A stretch of 12,998 nucleotides of DNA. Source: Melioribacter roseus (GTDB taxonomy: Bacteria; Bacteroidota; Ignavibacteria; Ignavibacteriales; Melioribacteraceae). The translations under genes and the position numbers were made by a program. Positions 8,252 to 12,832 of this stretch are shown one piece after another. Location of the stretch: contig DYHC01000009.1 in assembly GCA_020724325.1 (NCBI GenBank), forward strand, positions 1 through 12,998, in the 5' to 3' direction. The notes beneath the pieces were generated by a model. The model had not been told where the DNA came from. It searched no databases and saw only the letters and a program-made list of their open reading frames with translations. How positions within the stretch are numbered: the first letter of the stretch is position 1; every line of letters begins with the position of its first letter.

Positions 8252-10162
8252 ATGAAAGAATTCTTATTTAAGCCGTTCGAAGAAATGACTGAAAAGGATT
8301 ATGAAACTATTGGTTTCAAATCCGGGCTCGAAATTCATCAGCAGCTGCTAACAGATAAAAAATTATTCTGCCGGTGTCCAGCCGGCAAATACAGCACAAA
8401 ATACCATGCAGAAATATTGCGACACATGCGCCCAACTCTTTCCGAACTAGGCGAATATGACGGAACTGCACTAATGGAATTCAAAACGAAGAAAGATATT
8501 ATTTACAGAATTAATCGCGATACAGTCTGCACATACGAAATGGACGACACTCCGCCGTTTATAATTAATGACGATGCATTAGACATTTCTCTAAAATGCG
8601 GATTGTTGTTCGATTGTTCAATTATAGATGAACTCCACATCGCACGCAAACAATATTTAGATGGCAGCATACCTACCGGATTTCAGCGGACAGCAATCTT
8701 TGCCCTCAACGGAAAAATTCCTTATAAAGATAGAACTATTGATGTTGTTCAAATGTCGATTGAGGAAGATTCATGCCGCGAAGTATCCGACCATGGTCAT
8801 ACGCGTGTTTATTTAACAGACCGGCTTGGTATGCCGCTTATAGAAACCGTGACCGGACCGAATATGCGGACTCCTTTCGAAGTAGCCGAAGTTGCGGAAA
8901 TATGTGCAAAGCTTGTAAGAAGTACTAATAATGTTAGAAGAGGAATTGGCTCTGCACGCGAAGATGTTAACGTAAGCGTTGACGGCGGTACAAGAATCGA
9001 AATTAAGGGCGTTCCTAAAATTGGTAGAATTCCATTGCTTACTTACAACGAGGCGATGCGTCAGTGGAATCTGCTCCGTTTGAGAGAGGAACTTCTTAAA
9101 AGAGGAATAACAAAAGAAACCTTTGAAGCATCATCTTCAGATGTTACAAAAATTATTAAAAAAGCTCACTACCAGCCGGTCAGAAATGCAATTGAGCAGG
9201 GGCTGAAAATTAAATGCGTTACTCTAAAAGGTTTTTTTGGTCTGCTCAATTGGCAGACGCAAACCGATACATACTTCTCAAAAGAAATTTCAGACCGTGT
9301 TAGAGTAATTGCATGTTTGACTTCTATTCCAAATATAATTCACTCCGATAGCCGCGGGGATAATCTACTTTCTGCAGAGTGGCAGAATATAAAAAGATAT
9401 GTAGGAGCTGCGGATAACGATACGCTTGTTATCGTTTGGGGAAATGATCTGGATACAGAAATGGCTGTAAATGAAATAATTATTAGAGCTAAAGAAGCAA
9501 CTATTGGCGTTCCATCAGAAACAAGACAGGCGTTGAGAGACGGAACAAACGGATTCGAAAGAATTTTACCGGGTGCCGATAGAATGTACCCTGATACTGA
9601 CCTTCCGCCTACAAAAATTACTAACATCCGTTTGAATAGACTAAAAGAAAATTTACCCGAGAAATTCTGGATTAGTGAGGAATGGTATAAACAATTAAGA
9701 ATTCCTACAGACATTATTTGTGAATTATCAATTTCAAAATTTGCCGGATTATTTAAGTATCTGGTTACTGAATGGAATATCAACCCTGTCTTAGCTGCCG
9801 TTGCCCTTATTCAATTTCCGAAAAGATTGAAGAAGATGGGTTTTGATATTTCTCTTCTTACACCCGAAATGATGAGAGATATTTTTATTGCATACAAGGA
9901 CGGCTTACTTTCGCGTAATGGAATTTTGATTGCAATGCAAAAGACAATTACCAAAGGAAAATTCTATCCGGAATTACTGCCAAAACCTCTGTCGTCAAAA
10001 GAGATTGATGAAATAATATATCAGACAATAAAAGAAGTTGAACAAATAAATTTGTTAAACTATTCGAAGAGAAATGACATTCTGATTGCACATACTATGA
10101 ACAGAGTTAGGATGAGTGTTGAAGGAAAAATTGTAAAAGAGAAAATTATAAAGATGTCTTAG
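8252..10162 (+). CDS. gatE: Glu-tRNA(Gln) amidotransferase subunit E (archaeal type)
   Basis: GatE is the tRNA-binding kinase/amidotransferase subunit of GatDE: it phosphorylates the glutamate of Glu-tRNA(Gln) and uses ammonia from GatD to make Gln-tRNA(Gln). The 636 residues match archaeal GatE along the whole length. GLEIHQQL (25-32) is the GatB/GatE signature. CRCP (40-43) is in the metal-site region. RPTLSELGEYD (60-70), DGSIPTGFQRTA (137-148), SIEEDSCREV (169-178) and RLGMPLIET (191-199) form the cradle domain. About 292-415 aligns with the AspRS-like insertion that separates GatE from GatB, followed by IGVPSETRQAL and DRMYPDTDLPP (443-453). The helical tail runs from about 470 to the end, but its last part (HTMNRVRMSVEGKIV) lacks the glycine-rich MGxxMxxxRG motif usual there. 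The ATG start is preceded only by a GAGA site. gatD follows. It is unexpected in a bacterium. Confidence 0.95.
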   Translation: MKEFLFKPFEEMTEKDYETIGFKSGLEIHQQLLTDKKLFCRCPAGKYSTKYHAEILRHMRPTLSELGEYDGTALMEFKTKKDIIYRINRDTVCTYEMDDTPPFIINDDALDISLKCGLLFDCSIIDELHIARKQYLDGSIPTGFQRTAIFALNGKIPYKDRTIDVVQMSIEEDSCREVSDHGHTRVYLTDRLGMPLIETVTGPNMRTPFEVAEVAEICAKLVRSTNNVRRGIGSAREDVNVSVDGGTRIEIKGVPKIGRIPLLTYNEAMRQWNLLRLREELLKRGITKETFEASSSDVTKIIKKAHYQPVRNAIEQGLKIKCVTLKGFFGLLNWQTQTDTYFSKEISDRVRVIACLTSIPNIIHSDSRGDNLLSAEWQNIKRYVGAADNDTLVIVWGNDLDTEMAVNEIIIRAKEATIGVPSETRQALRDGTNGFERILPGADRMYPDTDLPPTKITNIRLNRLKENLPEKFWISEEWYKQLRIPTDIICELSISKFAGLFKYLVTEWNINPVLAAVALIQFPKRLKKMGFDISLLTPEMMRDIFIAYKDGLLSRNGILIAMQKTITKGKFYPELLPKPLSSKEIDEIIYQTIKEVEQINLLNYSKRNDILIAHTMNRVRMSVEGKIVKEKIIKMS

Positions 10163-10166
10163 CACT

Positions 10167-10243
10167 CTCTGCGTAATCTCAGCGTGAACATCGTTAAAGA
10201 TTTGAACGCAGAGTTCGCAGAGTTTTCCGCAAAGAACACAGAG
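10167..10243. repeat. CTCTGCG/CGCAGAG-family inverted repeat between gatE and gatD
   Basis: CTCTGCG at 10167-10173 is the reverse complement of CGCAGAG at 10207-10213 and again at 10216-10222; the right arm continues through AAGAACACAGAG to 10243. It is the same kind of element as that before gatE. If the upstream GTG at 10184 were the gatD start, this repeat would be translated as NAEFAEFSAKNTEG, a typical artefact of such repeats. It leaves a GAGGG ribosome site (10241-10245) at its right edge. Confidence 0.6.
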
Positions 10244-10249
10244 GGAAAA

Positions 10250-11632
10250 ATGGCAGAAGATTACAAAGGTTACAGAGGCAAAGCCCTCAGTACACTAAAA
10301 AATTTTGGCGCCCAGGTTTGGAGTGATGTTGAAATCAAAACTACAAAAGGAAATTTTAAGGGAATAATTCTTCCACGGTCAGAAACCGCAGATCATTTTC
10401 ATATTGTAATTAAACTACGGGTCGGTTATAACATTGGAATAGCTGCAGAAAATATAACCGATATTAAGATCGAAGGACGAAAAGAAGCACATTACAAAAT
10501 TCCCGAAAAAGATTTTCCGCGCGACCCATCAAAACCAAATGTAAAACTTCTTGGCACAGGCGGCACAATTGCATCACGTCTCGATTACAGAACCGGGGCT
10601 GTTATACCTGCTTTCTCTCCCGGAGAACTCTACGGCTCGGTTCCAGAGCTTGCAAATTTCTGTAACTTAGAAACAGAAAAGTTGTATGGTGTCTTTAGCG
10701 AGAATATGGGGCCCGATCAATGGATTGGTACAGCACAGGCTATTGGACGCGAAATAGAAAAAGGAATTGATGGAATTGTAATTGGACATGGAACAGATAC
10801 AATGCATCATACAGCCGCAGTATTATCATTTATGGTTCAGGATTCACCCGTTCCTATTGTAATGGTTGGATCGCAGAGATCGAGCGACCGTCCGTCATCC
10901 GATGCTGCGCTTAATCTTATGCACAGTGTTAAGACTGCGGCAGAAAGTGATATTGCTGAAGTTATGGTTTGCATGTTCGGTCCTACATCGGATTACTACG
11001 GATTGCTTCACCGCGGAACACGCGTCCGCAAAATGCATTCGAGTTACCGCTCAACATTTCGTACTATTGGCGATATCCCAATCGCAAAAGTGAGCCGCGA
11101 GGAAATTACTCCGCTGCGTAAAGATTACAAGCGCCGGCGCAAAGACCGCAGCGTTAATATCAATACATCGTTCGAAGAGAAAGTAAGCATAGTTTACTAT
11201 TATCCTAACATGATGCCCGATATTATCGACTCTCTTATTGATAACGATTACAAAGGAATTGTTATTGCAGGAACAGGACTTGGACATGTTAACAAACCTT
11301 TATATCCATCCCTTAAGCGCGCACACGAAAAAGGAATTGCTATTTATATGACCGTGCAGACCTTATGGGGATTTGTTCAAATGTATGTTTACGATACTGG
11401 TCGGGATATGATGGAGCTTGGTGTAATACCCGCAGCTAATATGCTGCCAGAAGCTGCTTATATGAAATTGTGCTGGGCTTTGGGACAAACAAACGACCCG
11501 AAGAAATTACAGGAAATAATGCTAACACCTATTGCCGGCGAAATTACAGAACGAGAACCGAGCAATGGTTATTTGATCTATCAAGGCGGACTGCCAGAGG
11601 TTGAAGAGTTTATTGCAAAGTATGTGAAGTGA
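10250..11632 (+). CDS. gatD: Glu-tRNA(Gln) amidotransferase subunit D (archaeal type)
   Basis: GatD is the L-asparaginase-like glutaminase subunit that releases ammonia for GatE. From the ATG at 10250 the protein has 460 residues. An N-terminal Sm/SH3-like barrel (about 5-90; YKGYRGKAL, then HFHIVIKLRVGYNIGI) is typical of GatD and absent from plain asparaginases. The asparaginase domain follows: GTGGTIAS with nucleophile Thr106, GHGTDTM with Thr182 and Asp183, VGSQRSSDRPSSDAALN, and Lys261 in RVRKMHS complete the catalytic tetrad known from M. thermautotrophicus GatD (Thr101, Thr177, Asp178, Lys254). I chose 10250 because GAGGG lies four bases upstream and family homology begins just after it. 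An in-frame GTG at 10184 would add 22 residues that are translated repeat. It lies 87 bases after gatE, so cotranscription is likely despite the intervening hairpin. Confidence 0.95.
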   Translation: MAEDYKGYRGKALSTLKNFGAQVWSDVEIKTTKGNFKGIILPRSETADHFHIVIKLRVGYNIGIAAENITDIKIEGRKEAHYKIPEKDFPRDPSKPNVKLLGTGGTIASRLDYRTGAVIPAFSPGELYGSVPELANFCNLETEKLYGVFSENMGPDQWIGTAQAIGREIEKGIDGIVIGHGTDTMHHTAAVLSFMVQDSPVPIVMVGSQRSSDRPSSDAALNLMHSVKTAAESDIAEVMVCMFGPTSDYYGLLHRGTRVRKMHSSYRSTFRTIGDIPIAKVSREEITPLRKDYKRRRKDRSVNINTSFEEKVSIVYYYPNMMPDIIDSLIDNDYKGIVIAGTGLGHVNKPLYPSLKRAHEKGIAIYMTVQTLWGFVQMYVYDTGRDMMELGVIPAANMLPEAAYMKLCWALGQTNDPKKLQEIMLTPIAGEITEREPSNGYLIYQGGLPEVEEFIAKYVK

Positions 11633-12007: not shown

Positions 12008-12832
12008 ATGGTATCTACAGTAGAGATAATAAATATAATATTACCGTTTGCATATCTCTTTACATTTTTTATTTATGCGTTAGATTTTTTTAATGAGAAG
12101 AAATCATTCGCTAACTCAAAGAGAATTTTTCTTTTCGTTACTCTTATAACGCATGTTTGCTATCTATTATTACGAACAATAGAGTTTGACCATCCGCCAA
12201 TTACAAATAAATTCGAAATTTTTTCAATTCTTGCATTTGCAATCGGTTTTTCATACTTCATACTCGAATTACTTACAGATGTGAGAGGAACAGGCGCGTT
12301 TATCATTCTCTTTGCACTATTATTTCAAATTGTCTCGTCATTATTCATCGAAAATAATTATGTAGTACCTGACGTATTACGAAACCGCCTACTTGGAATT
12401 CATGTTATCAGCGCATTGTTAGGTTATTCCGGAATAACAATTTCTGCGGTCTATGGTCTTTTGTTCTTAGTTCTTTATAAAAACTTAAAATCGAGTAAGT
12501 TCGGATTAATTTTCAACCGGCTGCCAAGTTTGGAAATATTGGAAAAATTAAGTTTTAACTCGCTGCTAATTGGCTTTGTGCTCTTTACAGTTGCAATTAT
12601 TATAGGAATTACATGGCTTCCTTCTGCATTTCCTAACTTCAGTTACAGCGACCCCAAATTAATTGGAACAGGTTTTGTGTGGATTATTTACGGCGCCGGC
12701 ATCCTATGCAAATTTACTGCAAACTGGTACGGTAAAAAGGTAATCTGGTTTTCTATTGCCGGGTTTTTATTTGCAATAATTTCTTTAATTCTAACAACTA
12801 CTCTCGCTAACACCTTTCATTCGTTTTATTGA
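12008..12832 (+). CDS. hemX: HemX/CcsA-like integral membrane protein
   Basis: A 274-residue polytopic membrane protein of the cytochrome c assembly (CcsA/HemX) superfamily. About eight membrane segments are visible (roughly 7-27, 38-56, 70-89, 95-113, 131-157, 183-203, 218-236, 246-266). RLPSLEILEKLSF before a membrane helix ending GITW closely resembles B. subtilis HemX as I recall it. His132 (GIHVISALLGY) fits a conserved family histidine. The tryptophan-rich haem-handling WWD motif of true CcsA is not intact: the corresponding stretch reads NFSYSDPKLIGTGFVW, with DPK kept but the tryptophans missing. HemX acts on the level or activity of glutamyl-tRNA reductase in Bacillus. hemA begins 14 bases downstream, so one operon is likely, which supports the HemX reading over cytochrome c maturation. 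A GGCGG stretch lies about 6 bases before the ATG. Confidence 0.85.
   Translation: MVSTVEIINIILPFAYLFTFFIYALDFFNEKKSFANSKRIFLFVTLITHVCYLLLRTIEFDHPPITNKFEIFSILAFAIGFSYFILELLTDVRGTGAFIILFALLFQIVSSLFIENNYVVPDVLRNRLLGIHVISALLGYSGITISAVYGLLFLVLYKNLKSSKFGLIFNRLPSLEILEKLSFNSLLIGFVLFTVAIIIGITWLPSAFPNFSYSDPKLIGTGFVWIIYGAGILCKFTANWYGKKVIWFSIAGFLFAIISLILTTTLANTFHSFY

Follow-up and report, generated by a model that had tools for sequence, protein, structure and literature searches.

A GatDE amidotransferase of putative Heimdallarchaeia-like origin in bacteria that carry GlnRS

The gatE-gatD locus and its bacterial carriers

The stretch of DNA analysed here, referred to as the window, comprises 12,998 nucleotides of a Melioribacter roseus assembly (contig DYHC01000009.1) and encodes both subunits of an archaeal-type GatDE amidotransferase, in the order gatE-gatD. 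The pair is found in bacteria that also possess glutaminyl-tRNA synthetase (GlnRS), and we tentatively propose that it serves these bacteria as a dispensable second enzyme. The features of the locus are collected in Table 1, in which GatD residues are counted from the ATG at 10250.

Table 1. Features of the gatE-gatD locus in window coordinates, with equivalent residues of Methanothermobacter thermautotrophicus (Mth) from alignment
Feature	Position	Strand	Evidence or remark
gatE, GatB/GatE-type kinase and amidotransferase subunit	8252..10162	+	open reading frame (ORF) of 636 residues; TIGR00134; PDB 1zq1_C, 2d6f_C
GatE His29 (Mth His15)	8336..8338	+	invariant, 31 rows
GatE signature Y135-I140, RKQYLDGSI (canonical archaea: RKxxIDGSN)	8654..8671	+	common to Asgard types A and C
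GatE Glu171 (Mth Glu157)	8762..8764	+	invariant in 31-row alignment
GatE Glu198 (Mth Glu184)	8843..8845	+	invariant in 31-row alignment
AspRS-like (GAD) insertion of GatE, about residues 286-408, weakened	9107..9475	+	PF02938; boundaries approximate
GatE tail domain (GatB/YqeY), about residues 566-636, degenerate	9947..10159	+	PF02637, identity analysis
gatD, asparaginase-type amide donor subunit with Sm-like N-terminal domain	10250..11632	+	460 residues; ORF open from GTG 10184
GatD Thr106 (Mth Thr101)	10565..10567	+	invariant in 23-row alignment
GatD Thr182-Asp183 (Mth Thr177-Asp178)	10793..10798	+	invariant in 23-row alignment
GatD Lys261 (Mth Lys254)	11030..11032	+	invariant in 23-row alignment
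GatD C-terminal extension EREPSNGYLIYQGG...	11549..11629	+	alignment: bacteria, Asgard A, C

Both ORFs are intact and their products pass the curated models. GatE scored 450.6 bits with TIGR00134 (cut-off 319.55) and 521.2 bits with PRK04028 (cut-off 456), and GatD reached 517.3 bits with TIGR02153 (cut-off 324) and 50.6 bits with the Sm-like domain GatD_N, PF18195 (cut-off 25.7), besides matching the N- and C-terminal domains of asparaginase. The GatB model TIGR00133 fails on the window GatE (100.2 bits against a cut-off of 314.8), which agrees with the initial annotation in that the genes form a complete GatDE and encode neither GatB nor a plain asparaginase. By sequence, the closest solved relatives of both subunits are archaeal GatDE structures (1zq1_C and 2d6f_C in the case of GatE), and an AlphaFold2 (AF2) model of GatE, with a predicted local distance difference test score (pLDDT) of 90.0 and a predicted template modelling score (pTM) of 0.84, has its best fold matches in 1zq1 and 2d6f. 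The true start of gatD is probably the ATG at 10250, and the GTG at 10184 would be wrong, because a GatD of the same genus and others start at or near MAEDYKGYRG.

The Thr/Thr/Asp/Lys residues of GatD, already recognized together with the Sm-like domain in the initial annotation, are presumably the catalytic set, and in GatE we take His29 to belong to the Mg/ATP site and Glu171 and Glu198 to the Mg site, by way of the aligned Mth residues. The AspRS-like insertion that had been read in GatE was recovered in part: the region is seen in the alignment, by position and in the AF2 model, but its GAD domain (PF02938) stays at 22.7 bits, under the cut-off of 23.4. Three archaeal or Asgard GatE proteins score 43.9-66.5 bits with this model, against 13.5-25.4 bits for bacterial GatE, the domain passing the cut-off in locus L108 and falling below it in L145, L126 and L105.

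The window belongs to a contig of 17 kb, in a bin of 2.3 Mb that is 67% complete and divided into 368 contigs. Among 57 relatives (genomes of the same genus, family or order, its own included), GatE was above the cut-off in 20 and GatD in 21, with both subunits in 19 genomes, and 19 of the 20 GatE matches lack an internal stop. In a sample of 296 genomes from the phylum, GatE was likewise above the cut-off in 22, each of which carries the label of the same class; within this class GatD is 71-95% identical to that of the window. Judging from the names of the closest proteins, the class is presumably Ignavibacteria; the closest GatE proteins in databases are labelled Melioribacter, Melioribacteraceae, Ignavibacteriales or Bacteroidota. 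Databases already name these proteins correctly, and related Ignavibacteria are indeed among their carriers, as had been suspected. The presence of the pair is nevertheless patchy, since the same-genus genome G001, with an estimated completeness of 98%, lacks GatE.

A contig scan with a mixed GatE alignment gave 570 confirmed matches, and the best 80 of these comprise 62 archaeal and 18 bacterial ones, by title and tree. Beyond carriers with Ignavibacteria-like titles, the bacteria among these best 80 include two Candidatus Aminicenantes (on contigs of 379 kb and 1.32 Mb), a Candidatus Cloacimonetes bin, a Kapaibacterium bin and an unclassified bacterium, and more phyla may carry GatDE among the remaining matches. 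No plasmid-borne bacterial GatE was found among the 20 of 21 matches listed, the sole match that spans most of the query being a haloarchaeal plasmid and the rest GatB or partial. A Natrinema plasmid (L065:4001-5604) has a GatE-like stretch in two pieces with no gene listed in an incomplete gene table, perhaps a broken copy.

The low completeness and the many contigs of the bin would leave room for archaeal contamination or a chimeric assembly, a doubt that the initial annotation had itself raised. This explanation is already refuted by complete genomes, and we regard its probability as close to nil. GatE is carried by the single-contig genomes G034, G047 and G173 and by a genome that is complete by its title (CP054675, L108), and GatD adjoins GatE in G034, G047 and L108. 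Moreover, the order PhoH-gatE-gatD, with gatE first as in other bacteria, is common to the window and four named loci. In G006 and G026, gatE and gatD lie on separate contigs, in G026 both of them near contig ends.

Domain matches identify the neighbours in the window as a protein with a type IX secretion system (T9SS) tail, Tag, an aldehyde dehydrogenase and a PhoH/PIN protein, while 12008-12832 encodes a cytochrome-c-assembly (CcsB/HemX-like) protein; the T9SS-tailed, Tag and HemX-like proteins had been read in the same way before. In the loci compared, no gene neighbouring gatE-gatD is conserved past close relatives. The gap between gatE and gatD (window 10160-10250) holds GCAGAG-rich repeats, and coordinates read for the relatives L094, L105, L126, L135 and L138 show an overlap of a few bases between gatE and gatD. 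In bacterium CSMAG_437, a tRNA-Glu(CTC) gene (L145:5738-5814) lies about 165 bases upstream of gatE. A tRNA linked to GatDE was discarded as a candidate feature: ARAGORN (default and -ps) found none in 18 other upstream stretches (16 bacterial, L125 and the window), and the odd, mutually unlike tRNA-like matches returned by -ps80 in six of these 18 stretches were taken for noise. With Rfam, six other loci gave no match at gathering level, and the window gave none that was credible.

Relationship to archaeal and Asgard GatDE

The window GatE is 32-35% identical to archaeal GatDE (1zq1, 2d6f); bacterial GatE proteins share 32-37% identity with two archaeal proteins, which in turn share 52% between themselves, and bacteria form one side of a branch in a 64-row GatE tree. 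Asgard sequences were added from relatives of the Heimdallarchaeota genome G332 and sorted into types to which we gave the labels A, B, C and L238-like. In a concatenated tree of the GatE catalytic cradle and GatD, with 44 rows chosen among those at hand, bacteria and Asgard types A, C and L238-like form one group (support 100/99), bacteria join Heimdall-A (97/96), and canonical archaea are separated from the rest with weak support (79/76). The approximately unbiased (AU) test, with groups defined from earlier trees, rejects A, C and L238-like as a clade without the bacteria (p 0.0097); it does not reject a clade of bacteria and C (p 0.095). The GatD tree, rooted on one asparaginase with a long branch, places bacteria inside Asgard GatD (98, Shimodaira-Hasegawa-like approximate likelihood ratio test) and beside C (94). 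The GatE cradle tree, rooted on five GatB proteins, joins bacteria to A (83/60, weak) within a group that also takes in C and L238-like (82/52, weak), and separates these four from canonical archaea and type B (99/94).

Gene order was compared in loci holding both genes, the bacterial and archaeal sets coming from the best 80 of 570 matches. An adjacent gatD follows gatE in 18/18 bacterial, 5/5 Heimdall-C and 5/5 L238-like loci, and gatD precedes gatE in 39/39 archaeal and 10/10 Heimdall-B loci; a further 22 archaeal loci and one B locus have no GatD in the fetched stretch and stand outside this count. In Heimdall-A, gatE and gatD lie on opposite strands in 8/8 loci, one more having no GatD in its stretch. 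The C-terminal extension of GatD occurs in bacteria and in type C. Of eight type A proteins, one reaches this point and has it too, and no extension is seen in other archaeal rows. In addition, the GatE cradle has conserved changes at 94, 95, 100, 135, 140 and 448 that are wholly or largely common to Asgard A and C, and the Y135-I140 signature is only partly present in the L238-like type, which has Y135 but V140. By ORF reading, the named type A locus L125 adjoins archaeal-type ribosomal protein genes, and for this reason it is not a bacterial contig.

The trees, the gene order, the GatD extension and the cradle signatures support the view that bacterial GatDE was acquired from a Heimdallarchaeia-like archaeon, in a transfer that, judged by the long stem, would be ancient. 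The nearest Asgard type is unsettled, being A by the GatE and concatenated trees and C or L238-like by the GatD tree and gene order. It had been postulated from the window alone that the pair came from archaea or marks an overlooked bacterial lineage of GatDE; both halves of that proposal gain from these results and from the carriers counted above, and the phylogeny that had been called for nests the bacterial pair inside Asgard GatDE.

Within bacteria, the Aminicenantes proteins stand among Ignavibacteria-like rows in the GatE and GatD trees, and the single Aminicenantes row of the concatenated and cradle trees is sister of the Ignavibacteria-like rows. In the GlnRS tree, Aminicenantes and one Bacteroidota-titled carrier group together (96). 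A transfer of GatDE between bacterial phyla is likely on this pattern, in either direction. GatDE would have entered bacteria probably once, long ago, and would have spread in one class and to a few other phyla.

Coexistence with GlnRS, decay of the GatE tail and candidate function

Besides proposing that GluRS be inspected for a non-discriminating anticodon-binding domain, the initial annotation had anticipated that carriers would lack glnS and gatCAB. On the contrary, GlnRS (TIGR00440) is above the cut-off in 53/57 relatives, among them 19 of the 20 GatE carriers, and in 8/8 named bacterial carriers, which makes 27/27 judgeable carriers out of 28 tested. The remaining carrier is the window's own bin, 67% complete, in which a GluRS gene, a neighbour of glnS in many relatives, runs off a contig end; the same-genus carriers G002 and G003 have a full GlnRS. 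A glnS fragment scored in the window's own genome proved to be the start of a GluRS gene. With GlnRS also present in 34/37 relatives without GatE, the enzyme is near universal either way and has no association with GatE. Since carriers possess GlnRS, GatDE is not needed for Gln-tRNA, and the possibility that it is their sole route to this product is ruled out. AsnRS is above the cut-off in 53/57 relatives and 17/20 GatE carriers, and a GatB-type match is found in 17/20 carriers (all except G000, G025 and G047, that of G002 being a fragment) and in 2/8 named bacterial carriers.

The GluRS proteins of seven carriers and five non-carriers were indistinguishable, the two separating columns being variable positions. 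Both tRNA-Gln isoacceptors have U1-A72 in two carriers (G335 and G047) and in one non-carrier, and tRNA-Glu has G1-C72 or G1-U72 in the genomes compared. No extra tRNA was seen in two carriers, with 33 and 35 distinct tRNAs versus 34 in a non-carrier, most long tRNAs not having been fetched. A pattern scan for tRNA-Gln in the 57 genomes was set aside, as its matches in 19 genomes look spurious and a reversed control matched too. The relatives G031 and G036, both with an estimated completeness of 100%, have GlnRS and AsnRS and neither GatE nor GatB, save for a weak tail-like match to the latter in G036. Because their GluRS is not distinct either, bulk Glu-tRNA(Gln) is probably not made in the group.

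According to a paper on the tRNA elbow, both GatDE and GatCAB tell tRNA-Gln from tRNA-Glu partly via their tail domains (PMC4810234). Tail and cradle identities of GatE are presented together, for pairs of proteins from which those shorter than 600 residues and the divergent carrier G042 were excluded; the pairs are not independent, and some genomes entered twice (L075 = G025, L096 = G027, L076 = G052). At a cradle identity of 70-80%, the tails of bacteria are 25.3% identical (526 pairs) and those of archaea 44.5% (92 pairs), the Asgard types giving 44.5% for A (10 pairs), 34.7% for B (4), 19.3% for C (3) and 63.0% for L238-like (5). When tails were realigned pairwise, with up to 700 sampled pairs per group, the same bin gave 26.4% for bacteria, 44.6% for archaea, 44.4% for A, 35.8% for B, 21.4% for C and 62.3% for L238-like. 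The gap between bacteria and archaea is smaller in the 60-70% cradle bin (22.0 vs 36.7%; realigned, 27.8 vs 36.8%) and larger in the 80-90% bin (32.6 vs 66.7%; realigned, 33.8 vs 63.5%). This decay is not general, given that GatB of five relatives (two of them carriers; 10 pairs) keeps its tail, at 52% identity for a cradle identity of 71%.

Domain scores add to this picture. Three archaeal or Asgard GatE proteins reach 72.1-85.2 bits with the tail model PF02637 and four other bacteria 21.7-43.2 bits, and in the window GatE no Pfam match to it was found at an E-value of 0.001. PF02637 is still above the cut-off in L145 and L108, a precomputed match to it exists, by our count, for 46 of the 120 closest GatE proteins, and the AF2 model predicts that the tail region of the window GatE folds. 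The GatE tail, which in archaea reads the tRNA elbow, has lost constraint in bacteria and in one Asgard branch (C), the constraint on the cradle being kept.

A parallel is found in Asgard archaea, where bacterial-type GlnRS is above the curated cut-off in 26 of the 56 genomes around G332, the completeness of which is not given, so that absences are weak. By placed loci, GlnRS occurs in 5/9 of type A, 2/5 of L238-like, 5/5 of C and 0/11 of B, that is, in 12/19 for A, C and L238-like together versus 0/11 for B (Fisher p 0.0006, relatedness ignored), and pieces below the cut-off exist in two more type A genomes, G342 and G347. Of the 26 genomes left, 23 each contain a GatE match outside the loci placed by sequence, most scoring like C, and 12 of these have GlnRS and 11 do not, a split that would weaken the tie between C and GlnRS if the genomes were complete; the remaining three lack a GatE match, and two of them have GlnRS. 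The groups with a decayed tail, namely bacteria and the five placed C genomes, are the groups in which GlnRS is found throughout, and types A and L238-like keep the tail, sometimes without a full GlnRS.

Several further observations concern the Asgard genomes. G332 has two GatDE pairs, one of type A on contig C5 (L125 is this copy) and a divergent one on C54, with GlnRS. In a 24-row GlnRS tree, holding no other GlnRS, the Asgard and Ignavibacteria-like sets are apart by short branches. Genes for tRNA-Gln(UUG) and tRNA-Gln(CUG) adjoin the GlnRS gene in L252 and L254, out of the eight loci L250-L257, and in G360 (L348) the tRNA-Gln genes lie about 17 kb from GlnRS; all have A1-U72, with the discriminator G73 in L252 and L254 and A73 in G360. 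In G362 and G370, which have L238-like GatDE, there is no GluRS or GlnRS match at an E-value of 1e-30; one of these genomes is listed at 1.4 Mb, and its GatE lies at 1.04 Mb on C1. Finally, a GatB-like match at G341:C107:10342-11634 falls inside a 993-residue open frame, perhaps a fusion.

The interpretation that we favour, with a probability of about 0.45, is that GatDE of Heimdallarchaeia-like origin would be a dispensable second enzyme that most likely repairs or backs up the synthesis of Gln-tRNA(Gln). GatD would free ammonia from Gln or Asn, and GatE would use ATP to activate the side chain of a tRNA-bound glutamate and would then amidate it. The substrate would most likely be Glu-tRNA(Gln) arising from mischarging or from a failure of GlnRS, and specificity may rest on the acceptor end, where the first base pair differs between tRNA-Gln and tRNA-Glu, more than on the elbow. 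This role is favoured because the chemistry and the family are fixed and that base pair still separates the two tRNAs. Several points weigh against it. The tRNA-Gln of the carriers G335 and G047 has U1-A72 in place of the A1-U72 read by archaeal GatDE; the tail by which the archaeal enzyme distinguishes tRNA-Gln from tRNA-Glu is decayed; a repair enzyme would probably have little to do if bulk Glu-tRNA(Gln) is not made; and the archaea-to-bacteria direction rests on rooting, with root placements that are weakly supported.

A new substrate follows closely in likelihood, given that the tail is decayed and Glu-tRNA(Gln) is apparently lacking. In such a scenario, which we consider a real if tentative possibility, GlnRS took over Gln-tRNA(Gln) and GatDE was freed, so that it would have kept its glutaminase, kinase and amidation chemistry and would amidate another glutamyl acceptor, either another tRNA or a glutamyl substrate without a tRNA elbow. 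The low identity of the tail relative to the cradle in bacteria and Heimdall-C, the tail kept by GatB, the conserved cradle changes common to Asgard types and the high identity of GatD within the class would fit a retained enzyme with a changed target. However, there is no candidate substrate, neither conserved neighbours past close relatives nor an extra tRNA in the two carriers offering one; the cradle changes also occur in Asgard types that may lack GlnRS; and the tail, with its residual PF02637 matches and predicted fold, is weakened rather than gone. A wider form of the idea, which strikes us as about equally likely, holds that an Asgard-born GatDE branch, later given to bacteria, was freed by GlnRS, lost the discrimination between tRNA-Gln and tRNA-Glu and adopted a new glutamyl substrate in both domains.

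The patchy occurrence of the pair (20/57 relatives, with G001 lacking it), its decayed tail and the separation of gatE and gatD on different contigs in G006 and G026 could also be those of a slowly decaying relic, selectively neutral or of slight use and now on its way out again. We judge this unlikely: a relic would hardly keep GatE free of stops in 19 of 20 cases, invariant catalytic residues, a GatD 71-95% identical within the class and adjacent genes in 18/18 named bacterial loci.

Comparison with known systems

GatDE is described in one review (PMC8762117) as an archaeal signature protein found exclusively in archaea, and a second review (PMC9499178) states that it now occurs only there and that GlnRS is absent from all known archaea. 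PMC9499178 also reports that archaeal GatDE reads A1-U72 and the D-loop of tRNA-Gln. On the other hand, GlnRS is said in PMC8879553 to have passed from eukaryotes to archaea and bacteria, by which statement an archaeal GlnRS is not unheard of. In the parts of open-licence papers that were covered, no description of bacterial GatDE or of an Asgard or Heimdall GlnRS was found. Both rules are broken by the present results, and partly together, with GatDE in bacteria that have GlnRS and with nearest Asgard relatives that often have it. The explanation that GatDE and archaeal tRNA-Gln shut out GlnRS becomes directly testable, and GatDE enzymes in which the elbow-reading tail is conserved in some and not in others form a natural series.

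The bacterial pair resembles the archaeal GatDE of Pyrococcus abyssi (1zq1) and M. thermautotrophicus (2d6f) in having both subunits, the same domain order, the catalytic residues and the GatE fold. It differs from them in the order gatE-gatD, the GatD extension, the weakened GAD domain, the decayed tail, the presence of GlnRS and the U1-A72 pair of tRNA-Gln. GatCAB shares with it a homologous catalytic subunit, GatB, and the same chemistry, but employs GatA as donor and has no AspRS-like insertion. The MurT/GatD proteins of Gram-positive peptidoglycan amidation belong to an unrelated family and have only the name in common.

The Heimdallarchaeia-like GatDE are the nearest in trees and have in common with the bacterial pair the cradle signatures, the GatD extension (A and C) and the gatE-to-gatD order (C and L238-like). 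The two sets differ in that GatD identity between them is 44-56%, that the type A genes lie on opposite strands, and that tRNA-Gln has A1-U72 in three GlnRS-bearing Asgard genomes in contrast to U1-A72 in carriers. Type C is like the bacteria in one more respect, in that the five genomes assigned to it by sequence combine a decayed tail with GlnRS.

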